This document shows, one piece after another, positions 18,657-30,947 of a stretch of 64,000 bases of DNA; the first letter of the stretch is position 1, and the number at the start of each line of letters is the position of its first letter. Below the pieces are notes generated by a model. That model ran no database searches. It saw nothing but the letters and a program-made list of their open reading frames with translations, and was not told the DNA's origin. The stretch spans positions 412,722 to 476,721 of the forward strand of contig NZ_KB892013.1 in NCBI RefSeq assembly GCF_000373645.1, written 5' to 3'. Made by a program: the position numbers and the translations under genes. The DNA is from Streptomyces sp. ATexAB-D23. GTDB lineage: Bacteria; Actinomycetota; Actinomycetes; Streptomycetales; Streptomycetaceae.

Positions 18657-21104
18657 TTACCAGCCGTTCGTCAGCGGCCGGGACGGCCGGGAGAGTGCCA
18701 GCTCGAACCAGACGGTCTTGCCGCGCGCCGTTCCGCTGGTGCCCCACTCGCGGGCGAGGCTGCTCACCAGCACGAGGCCGCGCCCGAATTCGTCGTTCGC
18801 GGTGACTCCGAGGAGCGAGGCGGGGGCGGGCTCGTCGTCGCTGACCTCGCACAGCAGCGCGCCCGTGCGGACCAGGCGGAGCCCGATGTGGTGGGTGCGG
18901 CCGTGCTTGACGGCGTTGGTCACGAGCTCGCTGACCATCAGTTCGGCCGATTCCACCGCGTCGGGCAGCTCCCAGTCGAGCAGCTTGCCGCGCACCAGGC
19001 GGCGGGCCCGGGAGACCTCGCGCGGGTCGAGGGCGAGCTGCCACTCGGCGACGTCGTCGTCCCCGATCCCGTTGAGCCGGGCCATCAGCAGGGCGACGTC
19101 GTCCTTGCGGCCGCCCCTGGGGTTCAGGGCGCGGATGATGGTGTCGCAGGCGTCGTCCATCGACGCGGCGGGGTGGGCGGCGGAGGCGCAGAGCGCGGCG
19201 AGCCCGGCCCCGATGTCCTGGCCGCGCACCTCGACCAGGCCGTCCGTGCACAGGATCAGCCGGTCTCCGGGGCGCACCCGGACGGTGGCGGTCTCGAAGG
19301 CGACCTGGCCGACGCCGATCGGCGCCCCGGTCGGCAGGTCCAGCAGTTCGGCCCGGCCGTCCTCGGCCCGGACCAGGACCGGCGGGATGTGGCCCGCGTT
19401 GGCGATCTGGAGCTCGTGGCCGATGGGGTCGTAGACCGCGTAGAGGCAGGTCGCGAGGTACTGCTCGCCGAGGCGCTGGGCCAGGTCGTCCAGATTGCGC
19501 AGGAGCTGGGCCGGTGGCAGCTCCATGGTGGCCATGGTCAGGACCGCCGTGCGCAACTGGCCCATCATCGCAGCCGAGTTGAGCCCGTGCCCCATCACGT
19601 CACCGACGACGAGCGCGGTCCGCGAGCCCGGGAGCTTCACCGAGTCGAACCAGTCGCCGCCGATCCGGCCGAGCCGGGTGCCCGGCAGATAGCGGGTGGC
19701 GATGTCGCAACCCGCCATGCGGGGCTCGACGTTGGGCAGCATGCTGTCCTGGAGCGTCTCGGCGACGTTCTCCTGGTAGGTGTACATGCGGGCGTTGTCG
19801 AGTACGAGCCCGGCGCGGGCCGCGAGTTCGGCGCCGGTGGTGCGGTCCATGTCGTCGAAGGGCTCCCGGCCGGGGCGGCGCATGAGCACCATGAAGCCGA
19901 GCACCACGTCGCGGGCCTTGAGCGGCACGATGAGCAGCGAGCGGTGGGTGATCAGGGGCCTGAGGTCCCGCTTCTCGAACTCGCCCGAGATCCGGTTGCT
20001 CAGCTCCTCGCTGACGTAGGGCACGATGACCGGCTCGCCCGTGACCATGCACTGGAAGAACGGGGTGTGCTCGGGGAAGGCGATGGACTCGCCGACGGGC
20101 ACGGTGTCGTCCCAGCGGCCCGGTTCGTCGTTGTGCTCGACCCAGACGCGGTGCCAGACCGTGGTGACGTCGGGCGGCCCGTCGGGAAAGCCCTCGCCGG
20201 CCAGGACGGCGGCGCGCAGGTGTGTACCCGCGAAGTCGCTGAAGCGGGGCACGGCGGCGCTGGTGACCTCGCGGATGGTGCGTTCGAGGTCGAGGGAGGT
20301 GCCGATGCGGCCGCTGACCTCGTTGAGGAATTCCAGCCGCTCCCTGACCGCCGCGTATTCGAGGTCCAGCTCGGGCCGGGGCACGGCGCGCGGAGCCGCC
20401 GCCCCGTCGGCGGCGCGCCCCTCGCTCTGTGCCGGGATGCCTCCGGCGCGCTTCGGCACACCCCAGTCGGGGGTGACCGGGATGCGGTCGTGGTGGCTGA
20501 ACTCCAGGACCGGGTAGCCCAGTTCGAGGACCTGGGCGACGATTCTCGTGGCCTCCTGCACACTCATGTTGGGCAGGATCTCCGGCAGCCGCGCCGACAG
20601 CTCCGGGTAGCCCGGGAAGTCGGTGTGGGCGGCGAATCCGGGTGCGACGGTCCGGGTCCGGGCGTCCTCGCCGCCCTCCGCGCCCCTCAGTCGCGCGCCG
20701 TCGGCGGCGAGCACGAGCAGCCGTTCCGGGCCGGGCCCGACCAGCGGGTAGGCCCACCACAGCACGTCGATCCGGCCGCGGCCGGGGTCGTCCAGCCGGG
20801 CGCTCCCCGCCACCGGGTAGGCGAAGTCGCCGCTCAGCGAACTGTCGAGCACGGGCCCTGGATCGGCGCGCTCCGCTTCCGCCGATGGACCGTCACCCGG
20901 GGACAGCACTCCGGAGACCGGGAGGAGTTCACCGGCCGGGCAGCCCACCGCCTGCGCCCGGGTGATCCCGAAGAGCCTTCCGGCTCCGGTGGACCAGTGC
21001 GAGACGAGTCCGTCCGTGTCGACGACGACCACGGCCAGTGGTACCCGGCCCGCCGCGTTGTCACGCGGCTGTGGTGTTCTCTGCGGCGACACACCGAGGT
21101 CCAT
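18657..21104 (-). CDS. SpoIIE-type PP2C phosphatase with PAS, GAF and HATPase domains
   Basis: 815 residues, soluble. Order: PAS-like (about 20-110, VVVDTDGLVSHWSTGAGRLF), a further sensor stretch, GAF (about 255-430), SpoIIE/PP2C phosphatase (about 450-660, metal Asp in GGDWFD and GDVMGHG), and a GHKL kinase-like HATPase domain (about 690-810, N-box ELVTNAVKHG). The combination is the streptomycete form of a partner-switching regulator: the phosphatase dephosphorylates anti-anti-sigma (STAS) proteins, and the ATPase half resembles RsbW/SpoIIAB, which rephosphorylates them. No STAS or sigma gene is nearby. ATG 21104 has GGAG nine bases upstream. Confidence 0.9.
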   Translation of the reverse strand: MDLGVSPQRTPQPRDNAAGRVPLAVVVVDTDGLVSHWSTGAGRLFGITRAQAVGCPAGELLPVSGVLSPGDGPSAEAERADPGPVLDSSLSGDFAYPVAGSARLDDPGRGRIDVLWWAYPLVGPGPERLLVLAADGARLRGAEGGEDARTRTVAPGFAAHTDFPGYPELSARLPEILPNMSVQEATRIVAQVLELGYPVLEFSHHDRIPVTPDWGVPKRAGGIPAQSEGRAADGAAAPRAVPRPELDLEYAAVRERLEFLNEVSGRIGTSLDLERTIREVTSAAVPRFSDFAGTHLRAAVLAGEGFPDGPPDVTTVWHRVWVEHNDEPGRWDDTVPVGESIAFPEHTPFFQCMVTGEPVIVPYVSEELSNRISGEFEKRDLRPLITHRSLLIVPLKARDVVLGFMVLMRRPGREPFDDMDRTTGAELAARAGLVLDNARMYTYQENVAETLQDSMLPNVEPRMAGCDIATRYLPGTRLGRIGGDWFDSVKLPGSRTALVVGDVMGHGLNSAAMMGQLRTAVLTMATMELPPAQLLRNLDDLAQRLGEQYLATCLYAVYDPIGHELQIANAGHIPPVLVRAEDGRAELLDLPTGAPIGVGQVAFETATVRVRPGDRLILCTDGLVEVRGQDIGAGLAALCASAAHPAASMDDACDTIIRALNPRGGRKDDVALLMARLNGIGDDDVAEWQLALDPREVSRARRLVRGKLLDWELPDAVESAELMVSELVTNAVKHGRTHHIGLRLVRTGALLCEVSDDEPAPASLLGVTANDEFGRGLVLVSSLAREWGTSGTARGKTVWFELALSRPSRPLTNGW

Positions 21105-21203
21105 GGGGGAAGGCTCCTTCCTCACCGCGACATGCCGCGGCGCGTGACTCCACGGTACGGGGCGGCGACCGGCGTCCGTGGGTCATCGGCGGAATCACCC
21201 ACG

Positions 21204-21257: not shown

Positions 21258-23723
21258 TCAGTCCTCGTGCCCCAGCTGGAGGTCGCGCTCGGTGCGCCCG
21301 CCGCCGGCGACCTGGAGCACGGTGGCCACCGGCGGGTAGCCGGCCGCGATCACGGTGTACTCGCCGGTGGACAGGTCCACGAACCGGAACGCCCCGTCGG
21401 GCCCCGTGGTCACGGTGTCCACGACGTTGCCCGCCGCGTCCAGGAGCGTGACGCGGGCGTCCTCGACGGGCCGCCCGCCGCCGGCCCGGACGATCCCGCG
21501 CAGCACGGCGCCGCCGGCCAGCTCGATGTCCTGCCGGGTCTCCCTGGCCGCCTGCACGCTGACCGGGAGGGCGGCGGGCCGGAACGCCGGGGCGGAGGCC
21601 GCGAGGGTGTACTCGCCCGCCACCAGCTCCGTGATCACGTAGCCGCCCTCGCGGCCGGTGCGCGTGGAGGCGACGACCTCGCCCCGTACGTCGGTCAGGG
21701 TGACGGCCGCGTCCCGCACGGGCACGCCGTCGGCGGTCACCACCGTTCCGGCGAGCCGGCCCGCGCCGCCGAGCACCACGTCGAGTTCGACGGGCCGTTC
21801 GCCGACGGTGACGCTGACGGCCTGCGGCTGGTGGCCCCCGGCGGCGGCGATCAGGACGTACGAACCGGCGCCCGGCACGCTGAGCGCGTACCGCCCCTCG
21901 TCCCCGCTGGCGCCCCGGCCGACCTGCTGCCCCTGGACGTCGATGAGGGTGAGGGCGGCGCGCGGGACCTTCGTACCGTCCGGGTGCTGGACGCTGCCGG
22001 AGACCGGGACCCCGGAGAGGTATCCGGCGGACGTGGTGCCCGGGTCGGTGCGGGCGGAGGGGATCGCGGCGGGCTCGGCCGCGGTGGTCTCAAGACCGGC
22101 TGCGGTGGTTTCGGAACTGTGGGACACCAGCGGTTTCTCCTTGAGGAAGAAGGCGAAGAACAGGCCGAGCACGAGGACCGGCACGAGGTAGAGGAAGATC
22201 CGGGGCATGGCGTCGGCGTACGCCTGGATGTAGGCGTCCCGCAGGGCGGGCTCCATCGCGTGCACCAGCTGCGGGCTGATCGACTCGGGGTCGGGGAGCT
22301 CCACCCCGGAGGGCAGCCGCACGGCGAGCGCGTCGGCCAGCCGCCCCGCGAACAGGGTGCCGAAGACGGCGGCGCCGACGCTGCCGCCGATCTGCCGGAA
22401 GTAGTTGTTGGCGCTGGTCGCGGAGCCGAGGTCGGCGGGGCGTACGGAGTTCTGCACGGCGAGGACCAGCACCGGCATGACGAGCCCGATCCCGAGGCCG
22501 AGCACCGCCTGCGCGATGCTGTATTCGATGCGCGGGGTGTCGGTCTCCATGCGGGACAGCAGCCACATGCCCACCACGGAGACGGCGCAGCCCGCGATCG
22601 GGTAGACGCGGTAGCGCCCGGTGCGGGAGATGAGCTGGCCGGAGACGACGGAGGCGGCGACGATGCCGCCCATCATGGGGAGCATCAGCAGCCCGGACTC
22701 GGTGGCGGTGGCCCCGTCGACCATCTGGAGGAAGGTCGGCAGATAGCTGGCCGCGCCGAACAGCGCGACGCCGACGACCGCGCCGACCAGTGCCGTGACG
22801 TTGAAGATCGAGTCGCGGAACAGCCGCAGCGGGATGATCGGTTCTGCGGCGCGGCGCTCGACGACGAGGAAGAGCGCAGTCGTCGCGACGGCGCCGGCCC
22901 CCAGCCCCAGGATGGTGCCCGAGCCCCAGGCGTACTCCGTGCCGCCCCAGCTGGTCAGCAGCACCAGGAAGGTCGAGGCGGCGGCGAGCAGGGCGGCGCC
23001 GAGGATGTCGAGCCGGGGGCGCACGGTCGGCCGGGGGAGCTTGAGGACGACGGTGATCACGGCGAAGGTGACCAGGCCGAACGGCACGTTGATGTAGAAG
23101 CACCAGCGCCAGGAGGCGTGGTCGGTGAAGAAGCCGCCGAGCAGCGGGCCCGCCACTGAGGCGAGGCCGAAGGCCGCGCCGATGAGCCCCATGAACCGGC
23201 CGCGCTCGCGGGGCGGGACCACGTCCGCGATGATCGCCTGGACGCCGATCATCAGTCCGCCACCGCCGACGCCCTGGAGGGCCCGGAAGGCGATCAGCTG
23301 GTCCATGGTGCGTGACCAGCCGGCCAGCGCGGAGCCGACGACGAAGACGACGATGGCGAACTGGAAGACGCCCTTGCGCCCGAAGAGGTCACCGAGCTTG
23401 CCGTAGACCGGCAGACCGATCGTGGAGGCGAGGAGGTAGGCGGTGACCGCCCAGGACATCTTCTCCAGGCCGTGCAGCTCACCGACGATCTTCGGGAGCG
23501 CGGTGGCCACGATCATCTGGTCGAGCGCCGCGAGCAGAAGCGTGAGCATCAGCCCGACGAAGATCAGCCGGATGCGGCGCGGGTCCGCCTCGGTCCCACC
23601 GGGCGAGTCGCCGCCGGCGGCTTCCTTCGCGGCGGGCGGCGGAGGCGGAGCGGCCGCGGGCGCCGCTTCGGCGCCCTCCGGACCGCCCGGCTCGTCCTCC
23701 AACAGAGTGATGCCACCCACCAC
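21258..23723 (-). CDS. MFS (DHA2/EmrB-type) exporter fused to carboxypeptidase-regulatory repeats
   Basis: 821 residues in two parts. Residues about 50-530 are a 14-helix drug:H+ antiporter: [17 protein letters not shown] in TM1, the motif A loop [13 protein letters not shown] and the motif C region [10 protein letters not shown]. The remainder (about 560-821) is three repeats of a beta-sandwich like the carboxypeptidase-regulatory domain: [40 protein letters not shown] and [20 protein letters not shown], each followed by a G-x-Y(A/V/T)h strand. If the final transmembrane helix leaves the C-terminus cytoplasmic, the repeats face inside. GTG at 23723 has GGGGAG six bases upstream; a Pro/Ala-rich tail precedes helix 1. 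Confidence 0.88.
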
Positions 23724-23907: not shown

Positions 23908-24381
23908 TCAGTTCTCGACCTCGGCGGCGAGGTTCTGCAGCAGCTCGTCGTAGATGCGGCCGAGCCCCTTGGGCGCGAAGGTCTTCTCGAAGAAGCCGCC
24001 GATGCCCCCGGCGCCGTTCCACACGGTCGAGACGACGGCCTTGGACTTGCCCTCGCCGGCCGGGGTGACGGTCCAGGTGGTGACCATCGAGGAGTTGCGG
24101 TCCTTCTCCACGAGCTGCCCTCCCCCATAGCCTGCGGCATGGGAGGTGCCCCCTGTCGGCTCGCTGACGTCGAGCAGGCAGTCGCGCACCCGCTTGCTGG
24201 TGGCCTGGAGCTTCCAGTGGACGAGGGTGCCCTCGCCGTCCCCGCCCTCGCGCACCTCGTACTCGCTGAAGTGGGCGGGCAGCACCTTGCCCCGGACCTC
24301 CTTGTAGTCGGCCAGCGCATCGAACACCGCCTCCGCGTCCGCCGCGATGATCCGCTCCGTCGTGGCTTCGACCTGCGCCAT
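23908..24381 (-). CDS. SRPBCC-family (START-like) protein
   Basis: 157 residues with the SRPBCC fold: N-terminal strand ERIIAADAEAVFDALADYKEV, a central WKL strand, and a long C-terminal helix (FEKTFAPKGLGRIYDELLQNL). It probably binds a hydrophobic ligand or takes part in polyketide-like or ligand-transfer chemistry; function not deducible. An Ala/Gly-rich insert (SHAAGYGGG) near 85 interrupts a beta turn and looks like an insertion relative to plain START domains. ATG 24381. Divergent from the radical SAM gene. Confidence 0.78.
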   Translation of the reverse strand: MAQVEATTERIIAADAEAVFDALADYKEVRGKVLPAHFSEYEVREGGDGEGTLVHWKLQATSKRVRDCLLDVSEPTGGTSHAAGYGGGQLVEKDRNSSMVTTWTVTPAGEGKSKAVVSTVWNGAGGIGGFFEKTFAPKGLGRIYDELLQNLAAEVEN

Positions 24382-24529: not shown

Positions 24530-25588
24530 ATGCGCTGGGACAATCTGGCCGAAAACAACGCCAACAACCCCATAGGCGGTACGGGTGCGCTCTTCGCCGC
24601 GGACGCGGTGACGACCCGGACCTTCGACACCCCCGAATTCCGGGGCATCACCTTCCACGAGATCCGGGCCCGCTCGATCGTGAACCGGGTGCCGGGCGCC
24701 TCCCGGATGCCGTTCGAATGGACCGTGAACCCGTACCGCGGCTGCACCCACGCCTGCGTCTACTGCTTCGCCCGCAAGACCCACAGCTATCTCGACCTCG
24801 ACACCGGGCTCGGCTTCGACTCGCAGATCGTCGTCAAGGTCAACGCCCCCGAGCTGGTCCGCCGCGAGATCGCCTCGCCGCGCTGGAACGGCGCGCACGT
24901 CGCGATGGGCACCAATGTCGACTGCTACCAGCGGGCGGAGGGCCGCTACCGGCTGATGCCAGGCATCCTGACCGCACTGCGCGACCACACGAACCCGTTC
25001 TCGATCCTGACGAAGGGCACCCTGATCCTGCGCGACCTGGAGCTGCTGCGGCAGGCCGCCGAGGTCACGGAGGTCGGCGTCTCGGTCTCGGTGGGCTTCG
25101 TCGACCCCGAGCTGTGGCGGACCGTGGAGCCCGGCACACCCTCGCCGGAGCGTCGCCTCGATGTCGTACGCACACTGAGCGAGCACGGCATCGGCTGCGG
25201 GGTGCTGATGGCGCCGGTCATCCCGCACCTCGGCGACAGCCCCGACCAGCTCCGGGCGACGGTCCGCGCGATCGCCGCCGCCGGGGCCACCTCGGTGACC
25301 CCGCTCGTCCTGCATCTGCGCCCCGGGGCCCGCGAGTGGTTCATGGAGTGGCTCGGCCGCCACCACCCGCACCTGGTGCGGCGCTACGAGCGGCTGTACG
25401 CGGACGGCGCCTACGCACCCACCTGGTACCAGCGCCGCATCACCCGGTACGTCCACGAGCTGGCGACCGAGTACGGCATCGGGCCCTCGCACCGCGGCAC
25501 CCCCCGCCGCCTGCCCGGACGTGAACCGCGGCCCCCGCAGGACGGCTCCGAGCCGGGCACCGGACCCACCCAGCTGACCCTGCTCTGA
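24530..25588 (+). CDS. Rv2578c-family radical SAM protein (SplB-like)
   Basis: 352 residues. The radical SAM cluster motif is CTHACVYCFARKTH (C-x3-C-x2-C, about 71-78), preceded by NPYRG, as in the spore photoproduct lyase/COG1533 group and mycobacterial Rv2578c. It binds a [4Fe-4S] cluster and SAM; the substrate is unknown, DNA or RNA bases being the common guess because SplB repairs thymine dimers. Start ATG 24530 follows GAGGAGG. The Pro/Arg-rich C-terminal tail (RRLPGREPRPPQDG) is unstructured. A LexA-type box upstream makes a DNA-damage role more likely. Confidence 0.88.
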   Translation: MRWDNLAENNANNPIGGTGALFAADAVTTRTFDTPEFRGITFHEIRARSIVNRVPGASRMPFEWTVNPYRGCTHACVYCFARKTHSYLDLDTGLGFDSQIVVKVNAPELVRREIASPRWNGAHVAMGTNVDCYQRAEGRYRLMPGILTALRDHTNPFSILTKGTLILRDLELLRQAAEVTEVGVSVSVGFVDPELWRTVEPGTPSPERRLDVVRTLSEHGIGCGVLMAPVIPHLGDSPDQLRATVRAIAAAGATSVTPLVLHLRPGAREWFMEWLGRHHPHLVRRYERLYADGAYAPTWYQRRITRYVHELATEYGIGPSHRGTPRRLPGREPRPPQDGSEPGTGPTQLTLL

Positions 25589-27638: not shown

Positions 27639-30600
27639 ATGTCAGAGGGGCTGTACGGCTGGCTTGTTTCTGCTGTGGCGGAGTTCGGCCGGACAGCCAA
27701 GATCAAACTGTCCGGCGGTGGCGGTGCCGAAGCATCGATACGCGGTCCACTCGAAGCCCTGCTCAAGGTCGTCGGGGAGCGGCACCACCAGCATGAGGTG
27801 AGCTGGCACGACGAGTACTCGCTCCCCGACCTGGGCGTCCGCCCGGACTACGCGGTGCGGGCCGGCGGTGAGCTGACGGGCTACATCGAGCTCAAGCGGC
27901 CCGGCCTCTCCGTGGACCCCAGTACGTTCGACAAGGCCAACACGGAGCAGTGGGAGAAACTGCGGAATCTCCCCAACGTGCTCTACTCCAACGGGACCGA
28001 GTGGCGACTTTTCCGTGACGGACAGCAGGTCGGGCAGACGGTCTGGTTCAGTGGTGCGTTGAAGAGCGCCGGCGCCGCGCTGACCCCGGTTGATCCGGCG
28101 GCCTTCGACGCACTGCTCAAGGTGTTCCTGAACTGGAAGCCTCCCGCGATCTCCAACGTCTCCCGGCTGGTCCAGCACGTCGCCCCTCTGTGCAGGCTTC
28201 TGCGGTCAGCCGTTGTGGAGCAACTGGCCGCAGAACGGAAGTCGTCCGCCGCGGACGACGACCCGCGGGCCAGACCCTTCACCGGTCTCAAGAACGAGTG
28301 GCGCAGACTGCTGTTCCCCACCGCCGACGACGCCACGTTCGCGGACGGTTACGCCCAGGCCGTGACCTTCGCGCTCCTCCTCGCGCGCTCCGAGGACATT
28401 CTCGTGCCGGACGTCGGGCTCCACGACATCGGCCGCCGCCTGGACGCTGACCACGCCCTCATGGGCAGGGCGCTGCAGTTGCTCACGGACCACGTCAACG
28501 ACCGCTTCCGAGTGACGCTCGAACTGCTGCAGCGCACGATCACAGGTGTGGACTGGCCCGCCATCCGGGCCGGCAACCGGGATGCGTACCTCCACCTGTA
28601 CGAACACTTCCTGACCGTGTACGACCAGGCGCTGCGCCAGAAGAGCGGCTCCTACTACACCCCGCACCAGATCGTGCGGGAGATGGTCCGCCTCACCGAG
28701 GACGTGCTGCGCACCCGACTCGGACAGCAGACCGGCTTCGGTGAGGACGACGTGCGCATCGTGGACCCCGCCATGGGCACGGGCACCTACTTGCACACGG
28801 TCATCGAGCGGGTGGCGGAGCAGGCCGCCGACCGCTACGGCCCGGCGATGGCCCCGGACGCCATCGCCCGGCTCGCCACCCGCCTCTACGGCTTCGAGTT
28901 GCAGATGGGCCCGTACGCCGTCGCCGAGCTCCGGACGTCGGACCTGCTGAAGCGCCACAGGACGCCGGTGCCCGAGGGCGGGCTCAATCTCTTCGTCACC
29001 GACACCCTCGACAATCCCTTTATCGAGGACGAACAGCTGTACACGCACGACGTACTGTCCGCCTCCCGGCGGCGGGCCAACCACATCAAGGCGACCATCC
29101 CGGTGAACGTCGTGATCGGGAACCCGCCGTACGACGACAAGGCGGAGAACCGCGGGGGCTGGGTGGAGAAGCGCGGCGGCAGCCAGGAATCGCCCCTGCT
29201 CGACGACTTCAGGCTCGCCGGAAACGGCCGCTACGAGCACGTCCTGAAGAACATGTACGTCTACTTCTGGCGGTGGGCCACCTGGAAGGTATTCGACGCG
29301 CACGAGGGCGACCGGCACGGAGTGGTCTGCTTCATCACCCCTTCCGGCTGGGTGACGGGTCCCGGCGGAAGGGGCATGCGGCGGTATCTGCGGCGGACGT
29401 GCGACGAGGGATGGATCATCAACCTCTCCCCGGAGGGCCAGCGGGCCGAAGTCGCCACCCGTCCCTTCCCCGGTGTCGCTCAGCCACTCGCCATCTGCGT
29501 CTTCGTCCGCAGGGCGGGAGAGAAACGCCGCGCGGACCACGGGGCTCACGTGCACTACCGCTCCGTCTCGGGCAGCCGTGATGACAAGTTCCGGCAGCTG
29601 TGCGACATCCGTCTGGACGACGGGGGCTGGAGGGACACCCATCCGACGGGGCATCGCTCCTTCACACCGGTGACGCAATCGGGCTGGGAAGAGTTTCCTG
29701 CTCTGGACGACCTCTTCCCGTGGGGCAGCCCCGGTGCCAAGGCGAACCGGTCCTGGGTCAGCAGTCCGTCGAAGGAGATCCTGCGCCGCCGGTGGGCGAC
29801 GCTGATCCGCGAGCCCGACCCGGAGACGAAGTCCGAACTGTTCAAGGAGACCCGGGATCGCAGGCTCGGTGACAGGAAGGAGCCACTCCCCGGCCGCACT
29901 GCGCACTCCCGTTCGATGAACGAAGAGACACACAGCCGCCCCGAGACGGTGAGAATCGCACTGCGCAGCTTCGACAGGCAGTGGCTGATCGCCGACAACC
30001 GCGCCCTCGACTACCCTCGCCCGGACCTGTGGGCTGCGATCCACGGCGGCCAGATCTTCCTGAACCAGCAGTCGTCGCACGCAATCGACTCGGGCCCAGC
30101 CGTCGTGGCGACCCACCTCGTACCCGACACCCACCACTTCAACGGCCGTGGTGGCCGAGTCATGCCGATCCTGCATCCCGATGGGTCGCCCAATACCGCG
30201 GCGGGTCTTCTGCCCCACCTCACACGTACCTTCGGCGGCGAGCCGGTGACCGTAGCGGATCTTGCCGCCTACACCGCCGCCGTCACCGGGCACAGCGCCT
30301 TCACCGAACGCTTCACGGAAGAACTGCTCACTCCTGGCGTACGTCTACCGCTGACCCGCAACGCGGAACTCTGGAACAGGGCCACGGCTCTGGGCCGCGA
30401 GATCCTCTGGGCATCGACGTACGGCGAGCGCTGCGCCGACACCCCGGCCGGCCGCACCGCCGCTGACGTCGGGTTTCCGTCCGGAGACGAGCGGCAGGTC
30501 CGCTACCTGACCCACATCGGCAGCACCGTCCCCAACACGATGTCCTACGAACCCGGTACGGAGACTCTGCGTGTGGGTGAGGGCACGTTCGCTCCGGTGC

Positions 30601-30947
30601 CGGAGGCGGTCTGGGCCTACCACGTAGGCGGCATGCGGGTCGTGAACAAGTGGTTCGGCTACCGCAAGGCCAAGCCGACGAGCAAGAGAACCAGCCCTCT
30701 GGACGACATCCACGTCGACAGCTGGCCGCCGGAGTGGACGACGGAACTGATCGAACTGCTCTGTGTCCTGCGTCGCCTCACCGATCTGGCCCCCGCGCAG
30801 AGCGCCCTGCTCACGGAGATTCTCGCGGGCGAGGTCATCACATGCGCCGAACTGGCCACTGAGGGAGTGACGCTCGCACCGGCCTCCGGCCGCAAGCCGC
30901 GCCACCGCCCCGCGGACGGGCTTTTCACGGAGGAGCACGTCATCTGA
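27639..30947 (+). CDS. Single-chain restriction-modification enzyme, type ISP-like without a helicase
   Basis: 1102 residues. The N-terminus carries a PD-(D/E)xK nuclease: D70 in LGVRPDYAV and E84-x-K86 in GYIELKRPG. After an alpha-rich linker comes an N6-adenine methyltransferase with SAM motif DPAMGTGTY (about 376-384) and catalytic NPPYDDKA (from about 494). The C-terminal part (about 870-1100), ending in WFGYRKAKP and DIHVDSWPPEW, resembles the ISP-type specificity region. The roughly 280 residues between nuclease and methyltransferase are too few for an SF2 helicase as found in LlaBIII-type ISP enzymes, so cutting would be type IIG-like. It is the only restriction gene in the window. Confidence 0.85.
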   Translation: MSEGLYGWLVSAVAEFGRTAKIKLSGGGGAEASIRGPLEALLKVVGERHHQHEVSWHDEYSLPDLGVRPDYAVRAGGELTGYIELKRPGLSVDPSTFDKANTEQWEKLRNLPNVLYSNGTEWRLFRDGQQVGQTVWFSGALKSAGAALTPVDPAAFDALLKVFLNWKPPAISNVSRLVQHVAPLCRLLRSAVVEQLAAERKSSAADDDPRARPFTGLKNEWRRLLFPTADDATFADGYAQAVTFALLLARSEDILVPDVGLHDIGRRLDADHALMGRALQLLTDHVNDRFRVTLELLQRTITGVDWPAIRAGNRDAYLHLYEHFLTVYDQALRQKSGSYYTPHQIVREMVRLTEDVLRTRLGQQTGFGEDDVRIVDPAMGTGTYLHTVIERVAEQAADRYGPAMAPDAIARLATRLYGFELQMGPYAVAELRTSDLLKRHRTPVPEGGLNLFVTDTLDNPFIEDEQLYTHDVLSASRRRANHIKATIPVNVVIGNPPYDDKAENRGGWVEKRGGSQESPLLDDFRLAGNGRYEHVLKNMYVYFWRWATWKVFDAHEGDRHGVVCFITPSGWVTGPGGRGMRRYLRRTCDEGWIINLSPEGQRAEVATRPFPGVAQPLAICVFVRRAGEKRRADHGAHVHYRSVSGSRDDKFRQLCDIRLDDGGWRDTHPTGHRSFTPVTQSGWEEFPALDDLFPWGSPGAKANRSWVSSPSKEILRRRWATLIREPDPETKSELFKETRDRRLGDRKEPLPGRTAHSRSMNEETHSRPETVRIALRSFDRQWLIADNRALDYPRPDLWAAIHGGQIFLNQQSSHAIDSGPAVVATHLVPDTHHFNGRGGRVMPILHPDGSPNTAAGLLPHLTRTFGGEPVTVADLAAYTAAVTGHSAFTERFTEELLTPGVRLPLTRNAELWNRATALGREILWASTYGERCADTPAGRTAADVGFPSGDERQVRYLTHIGSTVPNTMSYEPGTETLRVGEGTFAPVPEAVWAYHVGGMRVVNKWFGYRKAKPTSKRTSPLDDIHVDSWPPEWTTELIELLCVLRRLTDLAPAQSALLTEILAGEVITCAELATEGVTLAPASGRKPRHRPADGLFTEEHVI

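Follow-up and report, generated by a model that had tools for sequence, protein, structure and literature searches.

The gene at 21258..23723 (- strand) of the window, by which we mean the whole stretch of 64,000 nucleotides analysed here, encodes an 821-residue exporter of the DHA2/EmrB-type MFS class that carries a C-terminal tail of CarboxypepD_reg repeats, as indicated by its open reading frame and by Pfam and NCBIfam. The three domains of this tail are predicted to lie in the cytosol, and we propose that they may form a docking arm for a soluble partner, which in a paralogue of the exporter would be a neighbouring lipocalin; we put this role forward tentatively, as a reading somewhat likelier to fail than to hold. 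DHA2-class exporters are usually regarded as complete in their membrane part. The pump part described here is an ordinary DHA2 exporter, and the tail is not ordinary.

Translation starts at the GTG at 23723 or at the following codon (23720), with GGGGAG upstream, and the stop codon occupies 21258-21260. The membrane part (residues 48-524; 22152..23582, - strand) comprises 14 helices in the AlphaFold2 model, matches Pfam MFS_1 at residues 58-451 (8.1e-54), and brings the protein to 264.9 bits against the NCBIfam model TIGR00711 (efflux_EmrB), above its cut-off of 230.2. Reading by eye, we located MFS motif A at residues 108-117 (10 letters) and antiporter motif C as 12 letters in helix 5; we take the defined positions of these motifs to be between helices 2 and 3 and in helix 5, respectively. 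The protein is thus a DHA2/EmrB-type exporter by score, helix number and motifs, and is predicted from its sequence to be presumably a proton-coupled exporter of hydrophobic drugs or lipid-like metabolites. The best sequence and Foldseek matches of the membrane part are the solved DHA2 exporters EmrB, EfpA and MHAS2168 (Rv1410 type), whose chains are of the size of the membrane part (about 470-510 residues in the top Foldseek rows), whereas the window protein is longer by its tail. The highest-scoring named NCBIfam models are those of the tetracycline exporters OtrB and Tcr3, but the protein falls far under their cut-offs (309.3 versus 999 for OtrB and 295.8 versus 1000 for Tcr3), and the matches stop at residues 467 and 528, ahead of the tail. 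No EmrA-like protein was present among the seven window neighbours that were run against Pfam.

The tail is joined to the membrane part by a disordered and poorly conserved linker (residues 534-569; 22017..22124, - strand; pLDDT < 50). Pfam recognizes CarboxypepD_reg (PF13620) in three stretches near the C-terminus (3.3e-38; 130.3 bits versus a cut-off of 32.3), and these, together with the AlphaFold2 models, delimit repeat 1 (residues 572-654; 21762..22010), repeat 2 (residues 655-738; 21510..21761) and repeat 3 (residues 739-821; 21261..21509), all on the - strand. Alignment and the tail model identify repeat 3 as the most conserved of the three, and His 819, close to its end, is invariant across 40 aligned proteins. 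The full-length AlphaFold2 model, built from an alignment of 40 sequences, has a mean pLDDT of 81.8 and a pTM of 0.61; it places the last of the 14 membrane helices at residues 492-524 and gives three beta-sandwich repeats, of 6-7 strands each, from residue 572 to the C-terminus. A model of the tail alone reached a pLDDT of 89.8 and a pTM of 0.54, indicating that each domain is predicted with confidence but not the way in which the three are placed relative to one another. With a pTM of no more than 0.61, the full model likewise does not predict that the tail packs against the pump in a fixed way. The beta-sandwich of about seven strands expected for PF13620 appears in both models. A preliminary description of this DNA, which had called the protein a 14-helix EmrB-type transporter followed by three repeats and had proposed structure prediction of the latter, is borne out by TIGR00711, Pfam and the AlphaFold2 models, except that the repeat region measures about 250 rather than about 260 residues.

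A profile of the tail matched three solved chains: carboxypeptidase N, SdrD and NOMO2 (2.3e-13). By fold, the best matches of the tail are mainly pilins and adhesins. We take NOMO2, SdrD, carboxypeptidase N and the pilins to be extracellular or in the ER lumen, in agreement with the preliminary description, according to which such repeats usually occur outside cells. The CarboxypepD_reg or prealbumin-like domains of these proteins share the domain family and fold of the window tail; unlike them, the window domain is predicted to be cytosolic, an unusual location for CarboxypepD_reg, and is present in three distinct copies. The cytosolic prediction follows from the 14 helices with none after residue 524, from the distribution of positive charge (25 Lys and Arg residues in the inside loops versus 9 in the outside loops under the 14-helix assignment), and from the alignment of the model with EmrB, in which Foldseek matched the 494-residue chain over 497 columns. 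From hydropathy alone the 14 helices are less clean than in the AlphaFold2 model. Beyond residue 527, not a single 19-residue window has a mean above 1.4. The preliminary description had left two topologies open, a cytoplasmic C-terminus or a further helix that would put the repeats outside the cell, where they could bind a substrate or the cell wall. The first is the one that these observations favor, making binding of the wall or of an outside substrate unlikely. An outside tail, requiring an odd number of helices, would suit the solved relatives of the domain, most of which are extracytoplasmic; nevertheless, the helix number, the hydropathy profile, the loop charges and the TIGR00711 match all speak against it, as does the lack of a signal peptide-like stretch in the same-domain partner of the paralogue described below, and we consider it very improbable.

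To gauge how firmly the tail belongs to the pump we turned to 101 genomes of the genus, which we take to be Streptomyces (all 80 of the 80 named loci come from it). A tail match at E <= 1e-15 occurs in 88 of the 101; 84 have an orthologue, with tail identities of 79-98%, and the remaining four tail-positive genomes contain the more distant class only. The full protein lies in a single frame at 78 of the 80 named loci, the two exceptions being one at a contig end and one (L301) split at the linker. The split at L301 is the single observation in favor of two separate genes having been fused by an assembly or annotation error, and it likely reflects base errors, since the next gene there is also in pieces. 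Set against the 78 uninterrupted loci and the tail identities in 84 genomes, such an error can practically be dismissed, and with it the frame break that the preliminary description had entertained. That description had also considered that the repeats might be absent from most homologues. Among orthologues this is not so, but tail-less MFS paralogues are common, and 26 of them were sampled in the window's own genome.

Across 21 orthologues (the window protein plus 20, of which 13 rank among the best 17 tail matches, the other seven, L093-L099, being drawn from the bottom of the ranking), mean pairwise identity is 86.4% for the tail, 78.4% for the membrane part and 45% for the linker; by these alignments the tail is more strictly conserved than the pump in orthologues. 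Even in L093-L099, compared with the window protein, the tail is at least as well conserved as the pump. Average dN/dS between the window gene and 78 named orthologues is lower in the tail (0.115) than in the membrane part (0.247), a comparison biased by the choice of the 80 named loci through their tail match. Tail length varies only from 252 to 254 residues in 18 aligned orthologues. In a paralogue class (class B, 16 sequences) it is the tail that is less conserved (74.8%, against 81.8% for the pump), so strict conservation of the tail is not general. Taken with the models, the alignments indicate three distinct, fixed domains, predicted to be beta-sandwiches, that are under purifying selection and are inherited with the pump as one unit. 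Consistent with such inheritance, no tail-less form of the window pump was found at the corresponding site, adjoining an SRPBCC gene, in genomes lacking the orthologue: of 15 such sites inspected one (L222) lies at a contig edge, and the 14 readable loci contain neither pump nor tail match.

The SRPBCC (Polyketide_cyc2) gene in question (window 23908-24381, - strand) adjoins the pump at 19 of 20 and at 77 of 80 loci, and was a candidate for a ligand carrier or partner of the window pump. We rejected it because it persists where the pump is missing: it occurs in 97 of the 101 genomes, and of the 17 that lack the orthologue 15 have it (G037 at 60% identity). Together with a divergent radical-SAM gene (24530-25588, + strand), the SRPBCC gene forms a strongly conserved pair beside what looks like an optional exporter slot. 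Directly downstream of the exporter lies a PAS-GAF-SpoIIE-HATPase regulator (18657-21125, - strand), which is the next gene at 41 of the 80 named loci; its association as a SpoIIE-type phosphatase partner was set aside as positional, the gene also adjoining SRPBCC in the absence of the pump (L218). An orphan CarboxypepD_reg+YceI protein (P0006), considered as a partner acting in trans, is not supported in that role: its distribution does not follow the window gene, since proteins of its type occur in several genomes without that gene and have no close match, among those listed, in several that possess it. Elsewhere in the window, a long frame (27798-30947, + strand) contains, by eye, an adenine-methylase-like NPPY motif and perhaps encodes a restriction-modification protein.

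The window's genome contains a second full-length copy (P0003; locus L017, at C24), 43% identical to the window protein including the three-repeat tail, as well as a third MFS protein with one repeat. The second copy lies in an operon in which a MarR gene is followed, after a 23-base gap, by the pump and then, on the pump's strand, by a gene for a CarboxypepD_reg+YceI protein. This order, with such a gene after the paralogue pump, recurs at 17 of 20 loci, although at L100 two frames make up the pump. The exceptions are L107, L108 and L114, where the pump is of another type or truncated and no YceI gene is present. At L114 (5026-6291, - strand), a 421-residue frame has a complete three-repeat tail after a short remnant of a membrane pump. 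Among the matches listed, a YceI match lies within 2.5 kb in at least 56 of 66 paralogue-class rows, the other ten rows including L107, L108 and L114. In L168, L172, L188 and L189, from other genera, the frame of the pump shares 4 bases with that of the YceI protein. The partner in the window's genome (P0004) has a YceI domain (PF04264, 1.5e-44) preceded by an N-terminal CarboxypepD_reg-like domain that scores 31.3 bits, just under the cut-off of 32.3; in the L188 partner CarboxypepD_reg reaches 44.5 bits. A linked and sometimes overlapping gene that carries the same domain as the pump's tail suggests recruitment. By simple hydropathy, no strong N-terminal hydrophobic stretch was detected in 23 partners (highest 15-residue mean, 1.55), whose starts are approximate and in many cases fall inside the domain, and one of which (L169) is without the extra domain.

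The paralogue operon is apparently the SAV4189-SAV4190 system, a MarR-MFS operon of S. avermitilis with a 22-base gap, in which SAV4189 represses SAV4190 (PMC6036246). We equate the two through the MarR gene, the gap, the gene length (about 2.5 kb for L017, which fits the deletion described in PMC6036246, spanning +104 to about +2446) and the presence, immediately ahead of the paralogue's MarR gene, of two exact SAV4189 boxes; the mean number of boxes expected with up to one mismatch is 0.19, and two were reached in 3 of 200 shuffles. As reported in PMC6036246, SAV4190 is induced about 75-fold by hygromycin B and 71-fold by thiostrepton, avermectin yield increases by about 56-67% when it is deleted, avermectin itself is argued by the authors not to be a substrate, and the S. 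coelicolor counterparts are SCO4031 (MFS) and SCO4032 (the MarR homologue). The words "carboxypeptidase" and "YceI" are absent from the main text of that paper, and none of the open-access papers listed in our searches describes an MFS exporter with a CarboxypepD_reg tail. The window gene differs from the SAV4190 type in that it has an SRPBCC gene upstream instead of an adjoining MarR gene. The upstream MarR gene and boxes that mark the paralogue are thus lacking here, and no SAV4189 box occurs in the 64-kb window with up to one mismatch; nor does a CarboxypepD_reg+YceI gene, a mark defined here rather than in the main text of PMC6036246, follow the window gene, the 64-kb window containing no YceI match.

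Beyond the genus, a profile of the tail matched 81 of 99 genomes of the order and 74 of 394 genomes of the class at 1e-15, the latter from 19 of 137 genera, and 12 of 296 genomes of the phylum at 1e-30. Among 40 further loci picked for variety, one of which (L186) gave no gene, we found 47 frames with at least one repeat: 36 pumps, defined by a rough count of nine or more hydrophobic segments, five YceI proteins, and six others or incomplete frames. Of the pump frames, 34 match an MFS profile; this leaves L176 and L196, both of which are MMPL pumps. L176, from a single metagenome-derived genome with 6% contamination, combines an MMPL match (3.4e-84) with three CarboxypepD_reg repeats (2.6e-33). 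L196 (4238-6691, - strand), from the window's own genus, has an MMPL match (7.2e-86) and one C-terminal CarboxypepD_reg repeat (3.8e-11). All eight further loci of the L196 type (L330-L337), selected as single-repeat rows of the class search with long frames, encode pumps that share 77-97% identity with L196 in their MMPL part and end in a repeat-1-like domain; identity between L176 and the L196-type pumps is only about 27-30%. Because both MFS and MMPL frames carry the repeat, the module belongs to pumps of two superfamilies, and tails of one to three repeats occur on several further MFS lineages. Pumps with one-, two- or three-repeat tails but no YceI neighbour are common.

A quick tree of MFS membrane parts (80 rows thinned from 101, with all 26 tail-less rows from the window's genome) requires at least eight switches between tail and no tail, a minimum for that sample rather than a number of gains. 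Among the positions closest to the window pump are two tail-less paralogues from the same genome, L003 (1009-3072, - strand) and L004 (1483-3555, + strand), which end in a different stretch, about 180 residues long, with no match in Pfam; in L003 it resembles, by eye only, a winged helix. For L093, in which the membrane part is 51% and the tail 83% identical, we considered a swap of the tail onto an unrelated pump; in the tree, however, its membrane part joins the orthologues through a long branch, which points to fast change rather than a swap. The same locus was flagged for odd letter make-up. Other arrangements include a tail-bearing MFS frame (L177, 3324-6551, - strand) that extends past the repeats into DUF1622 and might be two genes, a 272-residue protein with three CarboxypepD_reg repeats and no pump in its frame (L175, 3597-4415, - strand), and, in two genomes of one genus (L180 and L204), tandem repeat-bearing MFS genes around a small gene that in L180 belongs to the TetR family.

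These results raise the possibility that the three tail domains act as a docking arm below the inner mouth of the pump, where they would hold a soluble cytosolic partner. In the paralogue system the candidate partner is the neighbouring, putatively intracellular YceI lipocalin, which would trap a hydrophobic compound and pass it on to the pump; the window gene may represent a stand-alone version whose partner would be encoded elsewhere or has yet to emerge. As described in PMC5350466 and PMC8472277, the ligands of YceI-family lipocalins include hydrophobic molecules and several antibiotics. One of them, BcnA (PMC5350466), is a YceI lipocalin like the product of the paralogue's linked gene, but is secreted, whereas the paralogue's partner adds an N-terminal CarboxypepD_reg-like domain and has no signal peptide-like stretch. 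Docking is favored by the topology, by the constraint on the tail and its inheritance with the pump as one unit, by the recurrence of the tail as an accessory of pumps and by the linked YceI partner, and also by the two SAV4189 boxes, the reported antibiotic induction of SAV4190 and the reported antibiotic binding of YceI lipocalins. Counting against it are the absence of a YceI neighbour from the window gene, the distributions of the orphan YceI and SRPBCC genes, the lower conservation of tail than of pump in the paralogue, the many tailed pumps without a YceI neighbour, and the fact that the antibiotic-binding lipocalin described in print is secreted.

Nearly as likely as a docking arm, and by itself still short of even, is a cytosolic tail that needs no partner and instead serves a structural or regulatory role, dimerising, stabilising or gating the pump, for instance through tail-tail contact between pumps. 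Such a role sits well with our finding no partner for the window gene, no conserved candidate having survived testing, and with the one- and two-repeat tails on other pumps, mostly without a YceI neighbour; the fixed length and high conservation of the tail would suit it and a docking arm equally. What it leaves aside is the recruitment suggested by the paralogue's linked gene, and the pTM of the full model offers it no predicted fixed packing of tail against pump. Alternatively, the tail might itself be a cytosolic binding site, either for the transported compound or for a signal molecule, and thereby gate the pump with no protein partner involved. The conserved and distinct loops of each repeat, with their invariant residues, speak for this, but most of the nearest folds are those of pilins and adhesins rather than of small-molecule binders, and we regard direct binding of this kind as having only a small chance of being correct.

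Extending the docking proposal from one gene to Actinobacteria at large, one could envisage an intracellular capture-and-export system in which a cytosolic YceI lipocalin, through its one module, docks onto the three-copy arm of an exporter for direct hand-over of a hydrophobic drug or metabolite. The module would have been transferred between several lineages of MFS pumps and two or more of MMPL pumps, with the window gene as a free-standing member; we think this wider picture rather unlikely as a whole, though less so than a ligand-binding tail. A cytosolic module that exceeds its pump in conservation, occurs in most genomes of the genus and on two pump superfamilies, and is common to a linked lipocalin would place substrate delivery, or regulation, before transport. 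The paralogous operon, for which PMC6036246 reports antibiotic induction and an effect on avermectin yield, provides an existing genetic system, in laboratory strains, in which this could be tested directly.
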